DNA of 64,000 nt from Microbacterium profundi (lineage in GTDB: Bacteria; Actinomycetota; Actinomycetes; Actinomycetales; Microbacteriaceae): positions 310,001-374,000 of the forward strand of contig NZ_JPSY01000002.1 of the NCBI RefSeq assembly GCF_000763375.1. Direction: 5' to 3'. Numbering within the stretch: position 1 is the stretch's first letter; every line of letters begins with the position of its first letter. Below the pieces are notes generated by a model, which made no database searches, was not told the DNA's origin, and saw only the letters and a program-made list of their open reading frames with translations. The position numbers were made by a program, and so were the translations under genes. Below are positions 53,062-61,919 of the stretch, piece after piece.

Positions 53062-53139
53062 GAATGTCAGCCTAGCGAGATCGACCTCGATACTTTTGAC
53101 GACCCTCCACAAGAAACTCGCCAGAACATGGCGGGATCT

Positions 53140-53787
53140 CTACGACCACAGGTCCGTCCAGGTGACGCCCAGATCACCCACCAGCCGACGGATCGTCGAC
53201 AGCGACATGCCCACGACCGTGGAGGGATCGCCGTCGACGCGGGTGATGAACGCTCCGCCGAGGCTGTCGACGGTGAATGCGCCGGCGACATTCAGGGGCT
53301 CGCCGGTCGCCACGTATGCAGCTATCTCGTCGTCCGATATGTCTTCGGCGAAGGTGACGGATGCCTCGGCGATGGCGGTGGCTTCCCTCGGCGCCGTGCC
53401 CGGAGCGACGCGGAACACCGAGTGCCCCGAGTGCAGGATTCCAGTCGCGCCGCGCATCTCGTGCCACCGGCGCGTCGCTTCCTCCGGCGTGTAGGGCTTG
53501 CCGTACACGTGACCGCCCAGCTCGAACATGGAGTCGCCGCCGATCACGATCCCGTCGAAGCCGGGGTCTTCCGTCGCCAGGCGCTGTGCGACGTCGGCCG
53601 CCTTGGCGCGGGCGAGCAGCAGCACGAGGTCGGCAGGAGGCAGATCAGCGCCCCGCTCGGCCGCAGCCGCGGCGGCGATGGCATCCTCATTCGTCTCCGG
53701 AGAGAGTGTGAGCGGATCGATCCCCGCCTGACGCAGCAGCATGAGACGGGCGGGGGAGGTGGAAGCCAGGCAGACGCGCATGTCCAT
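53140..53787 (-). CDS. Maf-family nucleotide pyrophosphatase
   Basis: 215 aa. Maf proteins hydrolyse non-canonical or canonical NTPs (dTTP/UTP or m7GTP classes). The conserved N-terminus reads VCLASTSPARLMLLRQAGI, followed by the acidic site VIGGDSMFELGG, the loop KPYTPEEATRRWHEMRG, HSGHSVF and the C-terminal VVGMSLSTIRRLV. ATG 53787 lies 7 nt after AGGA; a GTG at 53790 and an ATG at 53781 are alternatives. It is divergent, with a 17-bp gap, from the trmA-like gene, and near the carboxylase alpha subunit, the order known in mycobacteria. Confidence 0.92.
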   Translation of the reverse strand: MDMRVCLASTSPARLMLLRQAGIDPLTLSPETNEDAIAAAAAAERGADLPPADLVLLLARAKAADVAQRLATEDPGFDGIVIGGDSMFELGGHVYGKPYTPEEATRRWHEMRGATGILHSGHSVFRVAPGTAPREATAIAEASVTFAEDISDDEIAAYVATGEPLNVAGAFTVDSLGGAFITRVDGDPSTVVGMSLSTIRRLVGDLGVTWTDLWS

Positions 53788-53804
53788 CACCGTATCCTGG
53801 AGGG

Positions 53805-55004
53805 ATGACTTCTTCTGCGGGCCAGACGCTCGACCTCGACATCACCGGCATCGCGCACGGTGGCACCTTCATCGCACGTCACGAAGGTCGCGTGGTGTTC
53901 GTCTCGGACGCGATTCCGGGCGAGCGTGTGCGCGCACGCGTCACCGACGGCGCCAAGTCGTCGTTCTGGCGGGCGGAGGCGCTCGAAGTGCTCGAGGAAT
54001 CGCCGCAGCGTCGTCCGCACGTGTGGAAGGAAGCCGACATCTCGCGTGATCCCGTCGATCGCGCAGGCGGCGCTGACCTCGGTCACATCGATCTGGCGCA
54101 CCAGCGCACGCTCAAGCGTCAGGTGCTCACCGAGGCGCTCGACAAGTTCGCAGGCTCCGGCCTCGAGGCTCCCGAGATCGCGGCGATCGATGACGGCGAC
54201 GGTACAGGGTGGCGCACGCGCGTCTCGCTGCATGTGGATGCCGATGGCGTGGTCGGGCCGTTCGCGGCTCGCAGCCACCGGGTGATCCCCGTGCAGTCGC
54301 ATCCGCTGGCACGTCGCCGCGTGGCGGCCGAGGCGCTCTCGCTCAAGAACGCCAAGCCCGGTCGCATCGACCTCGTACAGGATGCTGACGGCAACGTGCA
54401 CGTGATCCGTCGCCCGGAGCGGGGCAAGCGCCAGCCCTCGGAGGTCATCAAGGAGCAGGTCGGCGAGCGCACTTTCCGAGTGGATGCCGACGGATTCTGG
54501 CAGGTGCATGCGCGCGCCGCCGACACGCTCGACACGGCCGTTCGATCCGTCCTCGAGGGCCGGATCGACCCGGCAAAGACCCATCTCGACCTGTACGGCG
54601 GGGTCGGCCTCTTCGCAGCCTCTCTCGCCGAGCTCGGTGCGACAGATCTCGTCACTGTGGAATCGAGCCGCCGCGCCACTGAGCACGCGAAGCACAACCT
54701 CGATCCGTTCGACGTCGCCGCCGTCACCGATCGCGTCGACCGCTACCTGAGCGGGCTTCCCTCGGGGATGCAGGCGGGCACCGTCGTCCTTGATCCGCCG
54801 CGCGCCGGCGCCGGGCGCGCTGTCGTCGAGGGCGTGCACGCCCTCAGCCCCGACGCGATCGTCTACGTCGCATGCGACCCGGTCGCTCTGGCGCGTGACC
54901 TCGGCACGTTCCGCGATCTCGGGTGGAACGTCGAGTCCCTGCAGGGCTTCGACCTGTTCCCGCACTCGCACCATTTCGAGGTCATCGCGCTGCTCAGTCG
55001 GTGA
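53805..55004 (+). CDS. TrmA/RlmD-family RNA uridine methyltransferase (TRAM domain)
   Basis: 399 aa. An N-terminal TRAM domain (LDLDITGIAHGGTFIARHEGRVVFVSDAIPGE) is followed by a SAM-dependent class I methyltransferase: LYGGVGLFAASLAELGA, TVESSRRATEHAKHNL, VVLDPPRAGAGRAVVEG and the catalytic Cys motif VYVACDPVALARDLGTF. The iron-sulfur cysteines of RlmD are absent (the segment after the TRAM domain is Cys-free), as in many actinobacterial homologues. Expected to form 5-methyluridine in rRNA or tRNA; target not known. A GGAGGG site abuts ATG 53805. Confidence 0.92.
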   Translation: MTSSAGQTLDLDITGIAHGGTFIARHEGRVVFVSDAIPGERVRARVTDGAKSSFWRAEALEVLEESPQRRPHVWKEADISRDPVDRAGGADLGHIDLAHQRTLKRQVLTEALDKFAGSGLEAPEIAAIDDGDGTGWRTRVSLHVDADGVVGPFAARSHRVIPVQSHPLARRRVAAEALSLKNAKPGRIDLVQDADGNVHVIRRPERGKRQPSEVIKEQVGERTFRVDADGFWQVHARAADTLDTAVRSVLEGRIDPAKTHLDLYGGVGLFAASLAELGATDLVTVESSRRATEHAKHNLDPFDVAAVTDRVDRYLSGLPSGMQAGTVVLDPPRAGAGRAVVEGVHALSPDAIVYVACDPVALARDLGTFRDLGWNVESLQGFDLFPHSHHFEVIALLSR

Positions 55005-55032
55005 GTTCTCAGCAGATCGATAGGGTGGAGCA

Positions 55033-55695
55033 ATGAGCAGGGTCGCATTCATCGATGACCACGAGTCCGTTCGTCTGGGGCTCGAGCTCGCATGCGAACG
55101 CGACGGCGCGCAGACGGTCGTGTTCTCAGGCAGCACAGTCGGCTCGTATCTGGGATGGCGTGCTTCCACGGGCTCCGCTCCGGCTGACGTGGTCGTGCTC
55201 GATCTGACTCTCGGAGACGGCACCACCGTCACAGAGAATGTGAGGAGCCTGGTCTCCGACGGCGCCAGCGTCGTCATCCACAGCGTCGCCGACCGCCCGG
55301 CCGCCGTGCGAGAAGCGCTCGCAGCCGGCGCCGCGGGCGTCGTGAGCAAGTCCTCAGCGCTGGATGACGTGCTCGACGCGATCCGCACCGTCGCACGTGG
55401 CGACGCGCTCAACAATGTCGAATGGGCCAGCGCCGTCGAGGGCGACCGGGAGTTCGCAGACGCGCAGTTGTCGGTGCGCGAGCGCGAGGTGCTGCGCCTG
55501 TATGCGGCGGGGCTTCCGTTGAAGGTCGTTGCTGAGCGGCTCGGAGTCGCGTACTCCACAGCCAAGGAGAACATCACCCGTGTGCGCGTGAAGTACGTCG
55601 AGGTCGGCCGGCAGGCATCGACCAAGATCGACCTGCTGCGCCGCGCGATGGAGGACGGAATCGTGGCGGCCGACGGGGCCTCCAATGCAGGCTGA
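55033..55695 (+). CDS. NarL/LuxR-family response regulator
   Basis: 220 aa. Receiver domain with acidic pocket AFIDDHESVR, phospho-Asp in VVVLDLTLGDG near residue 55, and Lys in AAGAAGVVSKSSAL. The C-terminal LuxR helix-turn-helix is LSVREREVLRLYAAGLPLKVVAERLGVAYSTAKENITRVRVKY. It overlaps the start of the kinase gene by 11 bp, so the two are translated together. Because that kinase is interrupted by an insertion sequence, this regulator may now lack its partner or be phosphorylated by others. Start ATG 55033 follows GGTGGAG. Confidence 0.94.
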   Translation: MSRVAFIDDHESVRLGLELACERDGAQTVVFSGSTVGSYLGWRASTGSAPADVVVLDLTLGDGTTVTENVRSLVSDGASVVIHSVADRPAAVREALAAGAAGVVSKSSALDDVLDAIRTVARGDALNNVEWASAVEGDREFADAQLSVREREVLRLYAAGLPLKVVAERLGVAYSTAKENITRVRVKYVEVGRQASTKIDLLRRAMEDGIVAADGASNAG

Positions 55696-56197
55696 CACCG
55701 CCCTCAAGGACGCCTGGAGCCGGATTCCGTCCCTCGGGGCGGCAGAGACGGCGTTCGAGCGCTTCACTGGAAAGCGGATGGAACGCATCCTCGCGACAGT
55801 CGTGGCGATCGGCTCCGCCATGCTGGGGACGCAGGCGATGTTCGCAGCCATCGGTACCATGTCGTCCGGGACCTCGCCCGTCCACATCACGTTGCTCGTG
55901 ATCGTCTACATTCCGCTGATCGCGATGCTGGTGGCGTGCGTCATCGGCCGAGGGGTGCGCGTGGCCTCCGGCTCGTTCGCGGTCGCCTACCTCGTCGCGC
56001 TCGCGAGTTGGCCGCTCACCGTCGGGGCAGGTGACCATCGCGCGGTCAACCAGCCGTGGATCTTCTTCCTCGTCAACGTCGGCGTCGCGGCGGCCATGCT
56101 CGCCTTCCCGGTGCGGATCCAGATGCTCTGGGCTGTGGCGGTGCCGCTCGTCTACGGCTGTGTGCGCCTAGGTGCGTGGGTCAGATCCTTCCGTTAA
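55685..56197 (+). pseudogene. N-terminal part of a sensor histidine kinase, cut by an insertion sequence
   Basis: The first 162 codons (to CTA at 56168-56170) are the membrane sensor part of a NarL-type histidine kinase: about five hydrophobic helices, including ILATVVAIGSAMLGTQAMFAAIG, ITLLVIVYIPLIAMLVACVIG and WIFFLVNVGVAAAMLAFPV. Reading continues eight codons into the IS (GAWVRSFR) to a TAA at 56195. The rest of the gene resumes at 57899 in the same frame. Joining 56171 to 57900 gives codons CTA-GTG-GAG and a 411-aa intact protein. ATG 55685 overlaps the response-regulator gene. No function is expected for the fragment alone. Confidence 0.92.
56168..56171. repeat. CTAG target-site duplication, left copy
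   Basis: CTAG directly precedes the left end of the IS; an identical CTAG follows the right end at 57896-57899. A palindromic 4-bp target fits the IS1182-like element, and removing one copy with the IS restores the kinase frame. Confidence 0.85.
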
Positions 56198-57895
56198 CGC
56201 GCCGGGGTGAATCCGGTGGATAGCGCGGGGTGCTGGGAGAATCGATTCATGACGGTGACTGCCAGCCTGGAGGGTCTGTTCGAGGTCGAGCCGGGTGAGG
56301 CGCGGGCGCCGGGATCGGCTGCACCGGCGGGTGCGGGCAAGACGTTCCGTGGGTATGACCAGGGGCAGTGTTTCCTGCTCCCGCCGAGTCTGGATGACTG
56401 GCTGGACGAGGATGATGAGGCCCGGTTCATCTCCGAGGTCGTCGAAGAGCTCTTGGATCTGACGCCGGTCTACGCGTCGTACGCGTCCGCCTCGGGTGCG
56501 CCTCCGTATGACCCGCGGATGATGTTGAAGCTGCTGCTGTTCGCGTACGCGACGGGCGTGACCTCGTCTCGTGAGTTGGAGCGGCGCTGCAAGCGCGACA
56601 TCGCCTTCCGGTGGCTGTCGGGCAACCAGGCGCCCGACTACCGGTCGCTGGCCCGGTTTCGTCGGCGTCACCTGGATGCCCTGCCGGGGTTGTTCCTGCA
56701 GGTGCTGCGGGTCTGCGCGGAGGCGGGGCTGGTGCGGTTGGGGCGTGTCGCGCTGGATGGCACGAAGCTGGCTGCGAACGCGTCGCGGCATAAGGCGATG
56801 AGCTATGACCGGATCGTGCCGAAGATCGATCAGCTCCAAGCCGAGGTCGCTGCGCTGCTCGCCGAGGCGGAGGCGGTCGATGAGGCCGAGGATCAGCAGT
56901 TCGGCCAGGACCGGCGCGGGGACGAGGTCGCCCCGGAGCTGGCCCGCCGTGAGGGGCGCCTGGTAAAACTACGTGCCGCGAAGGACGCGATCGAGGCCGA
57001 CGCCGCCGAGAAGGCGGCAGCCGTAGCGCGGAAGAAGGCCGACGCCGCCGGTCAGCCCCCTGAGCAGGCCGACGCGGCCGTCGCGACTGCAGTGGACACG
57101 GCGGCGCCGAAGCCGAAAGCGCAACGCAATTTCACCGATCCTGAGGCGCGGATGATGAAGACGGTCCGCGGCTTCGATTACGCGTTCAACGCGCAGGCCG
57201 TTGTCGATGAGGGCCACCAGATCGTGTTGAGCGCCGAGGTCACCCAGCAGGCCACCGATATCCAGCAGTTCGTCCCGATGGCCGAGCAGACCCTACGGAA
57301 CCTCGATGCGGCAGGAATCGAGCGTTCCCCAGAGGTCGTCCTCGCTGACGCGGGCTACTGCTCGGAAGCCAACCTCGAAGCCGCCGACGATCTGGACGCA
57401 CAGGTGTTGATCGCGACGGGACGGCAACGTCACGGCGAGAGCTTCCCTACCGCCGGCGCCCCGGACCCGGCCCCAGAGGACGCGAGCCGGCGGGAGCGGA
57501 TGGCGCACGCGCTGCGCACCGAGCAGGGCCGCACCGACTACGCGCGCCGCAAAGCCATCGTTGAACCCGCGTTCGGGCAGATGAAGACCCGGCAAAACGC
57601 CGGACAGCTCCGGCTACGCGGACTCGCCGGCGCCCAAGGCGAATGGCTACTCCACACGATCTGCCACAACCTCCGCAAGCTCCGCGTCGCTACAGCCGCC
57701 GGGCTGGCGCCCGCATAGGCCTCCCCAGGGGTCCCGGGGCGTCACAGCACGCACCGACAGTCGCCACGAGCCCCTCGCCGTGCGATCCCGCACGCTCTCA
57801 CACCGCAACGGCCCGCCCGTTCCCGTTCGCGACCGTCAGCGCGCGATGCCAGAGTCAACGCCGCGCGCCACGCCACCCGATTCTGACCCGCGCAC
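56172..57895 (+). mobile_element. IS1182-family-like insertion sequence, complete, 1,724 bp
   Basis: The element is bounded by imperfect terminal inverted repeats: left GTGCGTGGGTCAGA (56172-56185) and right complement GTGCGCGGGTCAGA (57895-57882), 13 of 14 matching. It holds one transposase gene reading left to right and about 177 bp of noncoding right end. Flanking CTAG direct repeats are intact. It sits inside a sensor kinase gene. Ends, duplication and open transposase suggest a recent, possibly active copy. Family assignment comes from transposase motifs seen by eye. Confidence 0.88.
56249..57718 (+). CDS. IS1182-family-like DDE transposase
   Basis: 489 aa. Starts with a short variable region and the DUF772 domain (about 35-150: YASYASASGAPPYDPRMMLKLLLFAYATGVTSSRELERRCKRDIAFRWLSGN, in part). 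The DDE residues are placed in VALDGTKLAANASRHKAMSYDR (first Asp), PEVVLADAGYCSEANL (second Asp) and KAIVEPAFGQMKTRQNAG (Glu). A Glu/Ala-rich helical insert lies between the first two. ATG 56249 has GGGAGA nine bases upstream; an earlier in-frame GTG at 56207 lacks a site. The C-terminal part uses more C-ended codons and CGG/CGC mixes than host genes. Confidence 0.92.
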   Translation: MTVTASLEGLFEVEPGEARAPGSAAPAGAGKTFRGYDQGQCFLLPPSLDDWLDEDDEARFISEVVEELLDLTPVYASYASASGAPPYDPRMMLKLLLFAYATGVTSSRELERRCKRDIAFRWLSGNQAPDYRSLARFRRRHLDALPGLFLQVLRVCAEAGLVRLGRVALDGTKLAANASRHKAMSYDRIVPKIDQLQAEVAALLAEAEAVDEAEDQQFGQDRRGDEVAPELARREGRLVKLRAAKDAIEADAAEKAAAVARKKADAAGQPPEQADAAVATAVDTAAPKPKAQRNFTDPEARMMKTVRGFDYAFNAQAVVDEGHQIVLSAEVTQQATDIQQFVPMAEQTLRNLDAAGIERSPEVVLADAGYCSEANLEAADDLDAQVLIATGRQRHGESFPTAGAPDPAPEDASRRERMAHALRTEQGRTDYARRKAIVEPAFGQMKTRQNAGQLRLRGLAGAQGEWLLHTICHNLRKLRVATAAGLAPA

Positions 57896-57898
57896 CTA

Positions 57899-58648
57899 GT
57901 GGAGGGCGAGTTCGCCGGATCTGTCTGGACTCTGACGGCATTCGACGTCTCGTTCACGCTGATCCTCGGCATCGTCATCCTGTCGCTGGGATGGATGTTC
58001 CGCTCCGTCGCCGCCGGAGTGGACGACGCGCGCGGACGGGCCGTCGCCTCGTATGCCGGGGCGGCCGCTGCTGCCGCCGCCGAGGAGGAGCGTGTCGCGA
58101 TGGCAGCGCTCATGCATGACAGCGTGCTCGCGGCACTGATCGCCGCCGAGCGTGCGGACAGCGATCGCGCGCGAGACCTCGCCGTCGCCATGGCGCGTGA
58201 GGCGCTGACACGGCTCGCCAACACCGAGGCGGCCGTGGCTCAAGAGGGGAGCGACGAGCCGGTCGGTACCGCACAGATCGTGATCGAGCTGCGGCGCGCG
58301 CTCTCCGAACGCGGAGCGGACGCGATCGTCGAGGAGCGCGGCGGATCCGGCCTCATACCCGGTCGCGCGGCCCGTGCTCTGGTTCTCGCCGCTCGTCAAG
58401 CCGTCGGAAACGCGGTCACCCACGCACACGGACGCGGACTGCATCTCATCGTGGAGGGCCACGGCGACGACGGACTCACGGTGACGGTCATGGACACCGG
58501 AGGCGGATTCGACATGGACACGGTCGGCGAGGACCGGCTCGGCATCCGCGCGTCGATCATCGCCAGGATGGCGGGTGTCGCGGGCACGGCCACGATCGAC
58601 TCCGACGGTGAGGGCACCACTGTGGTGCTGGGTTGGATGCGCGAATGA
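57899..58648 (+). pseudogene. C-terminal part of the split histidine kinase (DHp and ATPase domains)
   Basis: 249 codons from the GTG that includes the G of the right CTAG. It begins with the last membrane helix (FDVSFTLILGIVILSLGWMF), then the DHp helix MAALMHDSVLAALIAAERA with the phosphoacceptor His, and an ATPase domain with AARQAVGNAVTHAHGRGLHL (N-box), VMDTGGGFDMDTV (G1) and DRLGIRASIIARMAG (G2). Catalytic residues look intact, so the damage is only the insertion. No ribosome site precedes the GTG, so expression is unlikely unless the IS end drives it. The stop overlaps the next gene (ATGA, 58645-58648). Confidence 0.9.
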
Positions 58649-59649
58649 ACCGCTCGGTCCGCAGCGTCGCGACCTCGCTCGCGATAGGTTTCGCCGTGTA
58701 CTTCGCGGCGCGCGCCGTGTGGTGGACCGTGCAGCCGACTGCTCCGCTGCTGATGGTGGCGGCGATCCTGCTGTATCTCGTCGTCGTGGTGACGACGGTG
58801 CTGCTGGAGGCGCCGGCGGGGCCGCAACTGCCACGGTGGTGGGGTGTGGTCGCAGTGGTCGTCGCCGCGGTGATCCCGGCGATGGTGAGCGAATCACTGA
58901 GTCCCGCTCACCGGACGGCGCCGTTCGCGACCTGGTACATCGGCGCCGTCGGTCTGCTCGCGGTGGTGTGCATCGTGCGGAGAAGGGCGATCGCGGGCTG
59001 GCTGGTGCTCGCTGCGCTCACGGTGTCGTCCGCGGTGTGCATCGGTCCGTTCGTCGCACTCGAACTCGGACTGGTCGGATCGGTGATGTGGACGGTGGTG
59101 GCGCAGCTGCTGGTGCTGTTCTGGGATCGTGCCGTGCACGACACCGAGCATCTGGCGGACATCCAGCAGGCGGTGTCGGCGTGGCATGCCACTCAGCTGG
59201 TGCGCCAGCGTGAGCGTCGCGTCCGTGTGAAGTACGCGCTGGCGGTCGCCGGTCCCGTGCTGACCAGGACTGTCGCCGCACGTGGCCTGCTCACGGATGA
59301 GGATCGTCTGGAGGCGCGGCTCGCCGAGGGGCGGCTGCGCGACGAGCTGCGCGGTGCGAGTCTGCTCAATGACGCTGTGCGCGAGGCTATCCAGCAGGCG
59401 CGGTTGCGTGGAGCCGCAGTGACGGTGTTCGACGAGGGCGGGCTGGACGAGCTCGATGAGGATCGTCGGGCTGAGATCCGTGATGAACTCGCGCGCGTCC
59501 TGATGAGCGCGGAAGCAGGTCGTGTGATCATCCGCGCTGCTCGAGACCCGCAGACGGCCGTGACCGTCGTCGGACGATCCGGCTCCGGTGATTCCTCGGA
59601 CGAGGACTCCGTCGGACTGTGGCACGAGATTCCGCGCGAGCGCGAATGA
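58645..59649 (+). CDS. Kinase-associated membrane protein of the NarL-type locus
   Basis: 334 aa. N-terminal half: six hydrophobic helices (residues 8-160, e.g. PLLMVAAILLYLVVVVTTVLLEA). C-terminal half: long charged helices (QQAVSAWHATQLVRQRERRVRVKYALAVAGPVL, then LADE-rich segments) and a beta-rich end AGRVIIRAARDPQTAVTVVGRSGSG. The overall layout mirrors the neighbouring kinase, but no H-box or ATP-binding G-boxes are seen, so it may be a degenerate kinase or an accessory sensor. ATG 58645 overlaps the kinase stop. Function unknown. It ends at a strong terminator. Confidence 0.75.
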   Translation: MNRSVRSVATSLAIGFAVYFAARAVWWTVQPTAPLLMVAAILLYLVVVVTTVLLEAPAGPQLPRWWGVVAVVVAAVIPAMVSESLSPAHRTAPFATWYIGAVGLLAVVCIVRRRAIAGWLVLAALTVSSAVCIGPFVALELGLVGSVMWTVVAQLLVLFWDRAVHDTEHLADIQQAVSAWHATQLVRQRERRVRVKYALAVAGPVLTRTVAARGLLTDEDRLEARLAEGRLRDELRGASLLNDAVREAIQQARLRGAAVTVFDEGGLDELDEDRRAEIRDELARVLMSAEAGRVIIRAARDPQTAVTVVGRSGSGDSSDEDSVGLWHEIPRERE

Positions 59650-59659
59650 GGTGAGATGG

Positions 59660-59690
59660 GCGAGGGGCGGCGAAGCCGCCCGCCCCTCGC
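59660..59690 (+). terminator. Hairpin terminator ending the two-component locus
   Basis: An 11-bp perfect stem GCGAGGGGCGG/CCGCCCCTCGC (59660-59670, 59680-59690) with a 9-nt loop that can also pair inside; it lies 11 bp after the TGA. Confidence 0.8.
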
Positions 59691-59896
59691 CAGTTGCGAT
59701 TCAGTTACCCGAAAACTGACCGCAGATGGTCGATCACCGTCTGCCTACCCTGGAGCAGAGAGACCGACCGAACGCGAAGCGTTGATCCAATTCTGCTGCG
59801 GCGCGCACGGCTTGTCTGTAGGTATTTTGGGGGACAAGCGATTTCGGGCCCGACCTCGTCGAACGCGCACGCTCGAGCTCATCGAACGCGCAGCCG
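59691..59896. other. Intergenic region with no recognised gene
   Basis: 206 bp between the terminator and the end of the carboxylase epsilon gene. It contains CAGTT-ACCCGAA-AACTG (short inverted repeat, starting near 59702) and a T/G-rich stretch near 59820 (GTATTTTGGGGG). No coding frame with a ribosome site, no tRNA and no clear promoter was found. Confidence 0.5.
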
Positions 59897-60163
59897 TCAG
59901 CCCGAGAATCGTCCCCAGGGGATGTCGCGGCGCAGAGGTTCGCGCAGCGGTCGCTGTGTGCGCCGCCACGCCGAGCTGCGAGGTTCTTCGGCGACAGCAT
60001 CCGCCGACTCGGTCGCATAGGCGTCGCCGACCACAGCCATGAGAGCCGCGAGTTCTTCTTCGTTGGCGGTGCCGCGGATGATCCGCACGTCGGCTGCGCT
60101 CTGCGCTGCCGCGCTGTCGCGGGCCGGACTCTCGTCGCCTGAGGGCTGTTGCGATGTGGTCAC
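59897..60163 (-). CDS. Acyl-CoA carboxylase epsilon subunit
   Basis: 88 aa small actinobacterial carboxylase subunit. The recognisable core is [24 protein letters not shown] in the middle and [25 protein letters not shown] at the C-terminus, typical of AccE-like proteins that bridge alpha and beta subunits. The N-terminal 25 residues are disordered and Ser/Ala-rich. GTG 60163 overlaps the beta-subunit stop (GTGA, 60160-60163). Confidence 0.88.
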
Positions 60164-61746
60164 AGCGGGATGTTCCCGTGCTTCTTCGGCGGCAGTTCGC
60201 TGCGCTTGCCGCGCAGTGAGCGCAGTGCCTTGGCGATCGAGACGCGCGTGTTCGCTGGTTCGATGATGCCGTCGATCTCACCGCGCTCCGCAGCGAGGAA
60301 CGGAGATGTGACGCTGTACGTGTATTCGTTGGCGAGACGGGTGCGTACCGCCTTGACGTCCTCGCCGGCCTCCTCAGCCTTCTTGATCTCACCGCGGTAG
60401 AGGATGTTGACGGCTCCCTGGCCGCCCATGACGGCGATCTCGGCTGTGGGCCAAGCGAGGTTGACGTCTGCACCGAGCTGCTTGGAGCCCATCACGATGT
60501 ATGCGCCGCCGTAGGCCTTGCGGAGGATCACGGTCACCAGCGGCACGGTGGCTTCGGCGTACGCGTAGATGAGCTTCGCGCCGCGACGGATGACGCCGGT
60601 CCACTCCTGATCGGTGCCCGGCAGGTAACCGGGCACATCGACGAGTGTGACGATCGGGATCGAGAAGGCGTCGCAGAAACGCACGAATCGGCTGGCCTTC
60701 TCGCCGGCTTCGATGTTCAGCGTTCCCGCCATCTGCGAAGGCTGGTTGGCGATGATGCCGACCGAGCGGCCTTCGACGCGGCCGAAGCCGATGAGGATGT
60801 TCGGGGCGAACAGCGGCTGCACTTCGAGGAAGTCGTCGTCGATGACGTGGTCGATGACGGTGTGCATGTCGTACGGCTGGTTCGCGGAGTCCGGGATGAT
60901 CGTGTTCAGCGAGCGATCGGCATCCGTGGTCTCCCACTCGAAGTCGCTCTCATAGCCGGGGATCTCGGCCATGTTGTTGTCGGGGAGGAACCCGAGCAGA
61001 GTGCGCGCGTAGTCGATCGCGTCGTCTTCGTCCTCGGCGAGATAGTGCGCCACGCCCGAACGCGTGTTGTGCGTGAGGGCGCCGCCGAGCTCTTCCATCC
61101 CGACGTCTTCGCCGGTGACGGTCTTGATGACGTCGGGTCCGGTGACGAACATCTGGCTGGTCTTGTCGACCATGATGACGAAGTCGGTGAGGGCAGGACC
61201 ATAGACGGCGCCTCCGGCCGCCGGGCCCATGATGATCGAGATCTGCGGGATGACGCCGGACGAGCGCGTGTTCAGTCGGAAGATCTCGCCGTACTTGCTG
61301 AGGGCGAGCACGCCTTCCTGGATACGGGCTCCGCCGGAGTCGAGGATGCCGATGACCGGGATGCCGCCCTGAAGGGCGTACTCCATGATCTTGATGATCT
61401 TGTCGCCGGAGACCTCGCCGAGCGAGCCGCCGAACGTGGTGAAGTCCTGGGAGTACACGGCGACGGTGCGGCCGTGGATGGTGCCGATGCCGGTCACGAC
61501 GGAGTCGCCGTACGGGCGGTTGCGATCCATGCCGAACGCGGTCGTGCGGTGGCGTACATACTCGTCGAACTCGACGAAGCTTCCCGGGTCGACGAGCAGT
61601 TCGATGCGCTCGCGGGCGGTCATCTTGCCTTTGGAGTGCTGCTTCTCCTTCGCCTTCGTCTCGGCGTCGACCACTGCTTCGCTGTAGCGCGCGCGGAGGT
61701 CGGCGATCTTGCCGGCGGTCGTGGAGAGGTCAGGGGTGTCCGTCAC
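60160..61746 (-). CDS. Acyl-CoA carboxylase beta subunit (carboxyltransferase)
   Basis: 528 aa, transfers CO2 from biotin to acetyl- or propionyl-CoA. Motifs: [17 protein letters not shown] near the N-terminus, [62 protein letters not shown] (oxyanion loop), [18 protein letters not shown], and the second half [27 protein letters not shown] with [17 protein letters not shown] 61746 is preferred over GTG 61755 because GGAA lies just upstream. Pairs with the epsilon subunit here and the alpha subunit at 51.3 kb. Confidence 0.95.
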
Positions 61747-61919
61747 GGATTCCACACTAGCGGCGGGGAGCGGGCGGACGTTGGATGCTCACCACAACGG
61801 GTCGGCTGATCCTTTGGTGGTGTGGGCCGATCACGATCAAATGAGGGGGAGCGGCTACAAGTGACCGGCAGACACTGATTCGTGTGCGAGATCCGCAGGA
61901 GAGTGCTACGCCGTGCTAC

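Follow-up and report, generated by a model that had tools for sequence, protein, structure and literature searches.

Our data make us highly confident that a CTAG-targeting insertion sequence of the IS1182 family has inserted, apparently recently, into a sensor kinase gene of Microbacterium profundi that is conserved throughout the genus, duplicating its 4-bp target and probably abolishing sensing by the kinase. The locus lies in a stretch of 64,000 nucleotides, referred to here as the window, which belongs to a genome of 3.37 Mb in 12 contigs. A first-pass annotation of the window had described a histidine kinase split by an IS1182-like element of 1,724 bp with CTAG at both sides, and both the flanks and the family assignment were confirmed. 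The features of the locus are as follows.

55033 to 55695, plus strand: NarL/LuxR-type response regulator, intact (PF00072, PF00196, conserved residues)
55685 to 56197, plus strand: kinase fragment 1, 170 aa, N-terminal membrane sensor part (tblastn to 20 relatives, end of the frame, hydrophobic segments)
56168 to 56171, no strand: CTAG target duplication, left copy (flank comparison of element copies; two other copies with one CTAG in their empty site)
56172 to 57895, plus strand: IS1182-family insertion sequence, 1,724 bp (transposase model, terminal inverted repeats)
56207 to 57718, plus strand: transposase, intact, 503 aa (NF033551; PF01609, PF05598, PF13751)
57896 to 57899, no strand: CTAG target duplication, right copy (flank comparison of element copies)
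57899 to 58648, plus strand: kinase fragment 2, 249 aa, with the last membrane segment, a presumed DHp and the ATPase domain, and a possible GTG start that comes from the duplicated CTAG (PF02518, invariant positions, frame)
58645 to 59649, plus strand: conserved membrane protein, 3′ of the kinase in relatives too (relatives, structure model)

The kinase gene in relatives

The nearest named relative found is Microbacterium murale CCM 7640, with a DNA identity of 87 to 91% over the aligned pieces. Its kinase is uninterrupted, has 411 aa, and carries CTCGTG at the insertion site. In M. profundi, fragment 1 consists of 162 native and 8 element-derived codons, and the sum of 161 + 1 + 249 codons, with one CTAG counted once, is exactly the length of the M. 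murale kinase, in agreement with the 411-aa protein of the first-pass annotation. The continuous form is taken here from the relatives; the two halves of M. profundi were kept apart throughout. A search with fragment 2 gave 53 named loci, 51 of them labelled Microbacterium, and the kinase has 409 to 415 aa in all but one (L143). Of 20 relatives of the same genus that were fetched, 13 had a gap of exactly one codon between the homologous halves; corrected for the local alignment start, the gap was one codon in 18 and two codons in the remaining 2 (L056 and L057). Thus, the relatives have an uninterrupted kinase and not two separate fragments. The order of regulator, kinase, and downstream gene is kept in 20/20 of them, with overlaps in M. 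profundi of 11 bp (regulator and kinase) and 4 bp (kinase and membrane protein). Acyl-CoA carboxylase genes adjoin the kinase locus, and the genes for biotin carboxylase, Maf, and the methyltransferase are alongside in 19 and that for the carboxyltransferase in 18 of the 20 relatives.

With the full kinase of a relative as query, matches at 1e-50 were obtained in 354 of 366 genomes of the genus, the one of M. profundi included. Among the matches listed, two kinase matches per genome were seen in M. profundi itself (G000), G159, and G263. In G159 (L093) and G263 (L143; Microbacterium sp. Se63.02b), the kinase is broken by frameshifts, without an insertion; the methyltransferase gene next to the kinase in L143 is also frame-broken, which suggests a sequencing error there. 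In G328, the kinase runs into a contig end. In another genome (G023; L042 and L105), it is the regulator gene itself that is frame-broken. The only other match of fragment 2 in the M. profundi genome (E ≤ 0.001) is a distant paralogue (E = 1e-6), and therefore, no close duplicate of the kinase was found in this genome.

The insertion sequence and its copies

The transposase matched the IS1182 model NF033551 of NCBIfam with 338.4 bits (cut-off, 270), and 13 of the first 14 bases of the terminal inverted repeats agree. Three further copies are present in the M. profundi genome, two of them full and one with an altered interior. Repeats of this kind can raise the suspicion that the split is an assembly join at the repeated element, as the first-pass annotation had itself considered. 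However, the sequences on either side are contiguous within a single gene in relatives, which makes a false join unlikely; in addition, CTAG is present in duplicate, and 9 and 11 base differences set the window copy apart from the two other full copies. We regard an assembly join as extremely improbable. In the altered copy (L063 2304-3899, equal to G000:C3:154803-156398), 442 bp of the transposase gene are swapped for 306 bp, 305 of which match G000:C1:614683-614987 at 100%, a stretch that we read, from its sequence, as part of a glutaminase gene. A piece of a host gene has been captured by this copy of the insertion sequence, which retains its two ends and CTAG.

Full-length copies were also found in three other species (G140, G203, and G229) among the 366 genomes of the genus, the own one included; since two candidates per genome were scored, copy numbers are to be read as "at least", and most other matches were short. 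The copies of these three species are 7 or 8 bases off the window copy (99.5 to 99.6% identity). The kinases of the same three carriers match the reference kinase at E values of 1e-90 to 1e-72, far below the matches of closer relatives, and the combination with near-identical elements points to a recent horizontal spread. Outside the genus, a search of 299 genomes of the family gave one relative of the element (88% identity, in another genus), and 38 plasmid records hold more distant ones with 60 to 80% identity.

CTAG is a duplicated target

CTAG was present at both sides of all 10 near-identical copies examined; for both G140 copies, one of the flanks runs into the end of a contig, and one of the two shares its flank with a G229 copy, so the number of independent sites is smaller than 10. 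The same was true for 4/4 more distant copies, in G437, on a Dietzia plasmid, and on two Streptomyces plasmids (3 of the 38 plasmid records were checked for these flanks). The plasmid elements (L175, L176, and L177) belong to the IS1182 family and are about 65% identical to the window element. Such invariance at every copy examined is also what would be seen if CTAG were part of the element's termini and had taken the place of 4 bp of the kinase, which gives an equal net change in length. Indeed, CTAG is present in 0/53 of the relatives' kinase genes, and M. murale has CTCG at this site. Furthermore, IS1272, an element of the IS1182 family, replaces an inverted repeat without target duplication according to its description (PMC5678879); its transposase family, as named there, is that of the M. 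profundi element, which differs from it in duplicating CTAG.

The empty sites speak against this reading and make it highly improbable. For the C3 copy, a single CTAG stands precisely at the empty junction in three relatives (G297, G155, and G199), with both sides matching, although the match past the junction on the non-thrS side is short (about 20 to 40 bases). For the C1 copy (L062 2181-3912), the corresponding region of G218 lacks the element and has one CTAG: the match covers 79 bases at 100% on one side and 2,093 at 99.95% on the other, and the overlap of the two is CTAG. The gene just after this copy reads, by its sequence, as an IS21-like transposase. Since a single CTAG stands at the empty sites of both copies, CTAG is an existing 4-bp target that is duplicated by the element.

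The kinase gene of M. profundi would then have carried CTAG before the insertion. This tetranucleotide is strongly under-represented in the 64,000 nucleotides of the window (12 occurrences compared to 56 on average in shuffled sequence); from 53072 to 61757, it occurs solely at the two ends of the element. Hence, there was probably no other CTAG within several kilobases of the ancestral kinase site, which would have differed from the M. murale CTCGTG by a synonymous change.

Age of the insertion

Substitutions were compared with M. murale and strain AK031. On the window branch, fragment 1 had 13 nonsynonymous and 29 synonymous changes and fragment 2 had 4 and 24, compared to 12 and 15 (fragment 1) and 1 and 23 (fragment 2) on the M. 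murale branch; in this comparison, neither fragment had an excess of amino acid changes on the window branch. Both halves of the kinase are open up to their ends, without a stop or a frame break. Of 119 positions that are invariant among 52 intact relatives, 118 agree in the window; the 119th is residue 162, which lies outside the slice of fragment 1 compared, and the window has CTA, a leucine codon, there too. As neither half has decayed and near-identical copies of the element are present in three other species, the insertion appears to be recent when measured against the divergence from M. murale. The first-pass annotation had called it very recent and possibly reversible. The former is supported relative to the M. 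murale split rather than at the level of the isolate, as one genome per species was available; as for the latter, excision was not seen.

The two-component system and its third gene

The regulator has the NarL/LuxR layout of a receiver (PF00072, 37.8 bits; cut-off, 30.2) and a LuxR-type helix-turn-helix (PF00196, 25.6 bits; cut-off, 23.5), both above the Pfam cut-offs. Residues D8, D9, and D57 are common to 52 of 53 aligned rows and K106 to all 53. In the M. murale kinase, several hydrophobic segments precede residue 162 and one follows it; the conserved histidine is at position 235. HATPase_c was the only Pfam match in the kinase (PF02518 on fragment 2, 28.3 bits; cut-off, 26.4), and HisKA was not matched; H235 and its neighbours are invariant in 28 aligned kinases, and the stretch MHDSVL, which we take to be the DHp motif, is invariant across the kinases of the relatives. 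Thus, of the membrane, DHp, and ATPase domains assigned in the first-pass annotation, the membrane segments and the ATPase domain were recovered, and a DHp domain is presumed from the invariant stretch in relatives.

The NF047322 model of Streptomyces MacS was matched weakly by 28/28 intact kinases (best E = 6.8e-17), and the scores of fragment 2 (46.8 bits) and the M. murale kinase (46.2 bits) stay far below its cut-off of 300 bits. Compared to MacRS of Streptomyces (PMC10345050), the M. profundi locus has an extra third membrane gene 3′ of the kinase. Among solved structures, the kinase matched VraS by sequence (E = 0.003).

This third gene, like the regulator gene, is an open reading frame, as previously annotated; its most likely start is ATG 58645, in an overlap with the stop codon of the kinase gene. 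Its product is conserved in the genus, with 42 to 70% identity in 20 relatives. A search for a Pfam family gave no convincing match for it, and comparison by sequence with solved structures gave E values of 0.45 and 0.72 only. An AlphaFold model (mean pLDDT, 82; pTM, 0.52) combines membrane helices and long helices with a small alpha-beta domain and looks, by eye, like a kinase. A degenerate kinase was considered and rejected, with a probability of 1.6% in a profile comparison and below 4% in each of four further comparisons. In Microbacterium sp. CH12i (L097 5235-6238), the gene is apparently frame-broken.

Consequences for signalling

In our model, a CTAG-targeting element from an actinobacterial IS1182 branch inserted at codons 162 to 163 of the kinase and doubled the 4-bp target. 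The membrane sensor part is thereby split off, and the last membrane segment lies with the catalytic part on the other side of the element. Because the two parts are now in separate reading frames, the kinase would no longer sense its signal, and the regulator would remain unphosphorylated or be driven by something else. The loss of a complete circuit, which the first-pass annotation called probable, is more than the sequence shows: the regulator is intact, and fragment 2 has a membrane segment and the catalytic residues. It is regulated signalling that is likely lost. Fragment 2 might still be produced and have residual activity, which is conceivable because it could start at GTG 57899.

Translated from this GTG, fragment 2 could even be a working kinase without a sensor that phosphorylates the regulator independently of a signal. 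Its frame is open, with a GTG start, one hydrophobic segment, and the catalytic positions retained, and the element is oriented along the operon direction. However, a search with the sigma-70 consensus only gave no promoter-like site in 56000-58100, and inspection by eye gave no obvious ribosome-binding site before the GTG; we consider such a kinase unlikely. The same region has two terminator-like sites compared to a mean of 0.8 in shuffles. Even further goes the idea of a circuit that is rewired and not removed, in which the duplicated CTAG itself provides the GTG at which a sensor-less kinase, still anchored in the membrane, would begin; this kinase would drive the intact regulator without a signal. 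We hold this to be very unlikely; if true, the strict CTAG rule would make the insertion a defined and, in principle, reversible rewiring switch. Loss of sensing by the split kinase remains our preferred model.

Relation to known elements

ISPsy36, reported from the hrpR gene of Pseudomonas syringae pv. actinidiae (PMC8027508), resembles the present case as an IS1182-family element that breaks a regulator gene at a 4-bp palindromic target; its target is GGCC in contrast to CTAG, and the host and the gene also differ. CTAG is targeted by an actinobacterial element, TnRErm46 of Rhodococcus equi (PMC6794481), which is a larger transposon than the M. profundi element and is likened to it by the target. 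Inactivation of regulators by insertion sequences and CTAG targeting are both known already, and an IS1182 insertion in a regulator and CTAG targeting in actinobacteria having been described, the insertion is an ordinary event. A literature search joining Microbacterium, insertion sequence, histidine kinase, and IS1182 found no report.

In sum, CTAG flanks IS1182-family elements of one actinobacterial branch, to a DNA identity as low as about 65%, and its duplication is demonstrated at two sites; the locus in M. profundi is a natural and clean disruption of a sensor kinase that is kept by the large majority of the Microbacterium genomes examined.
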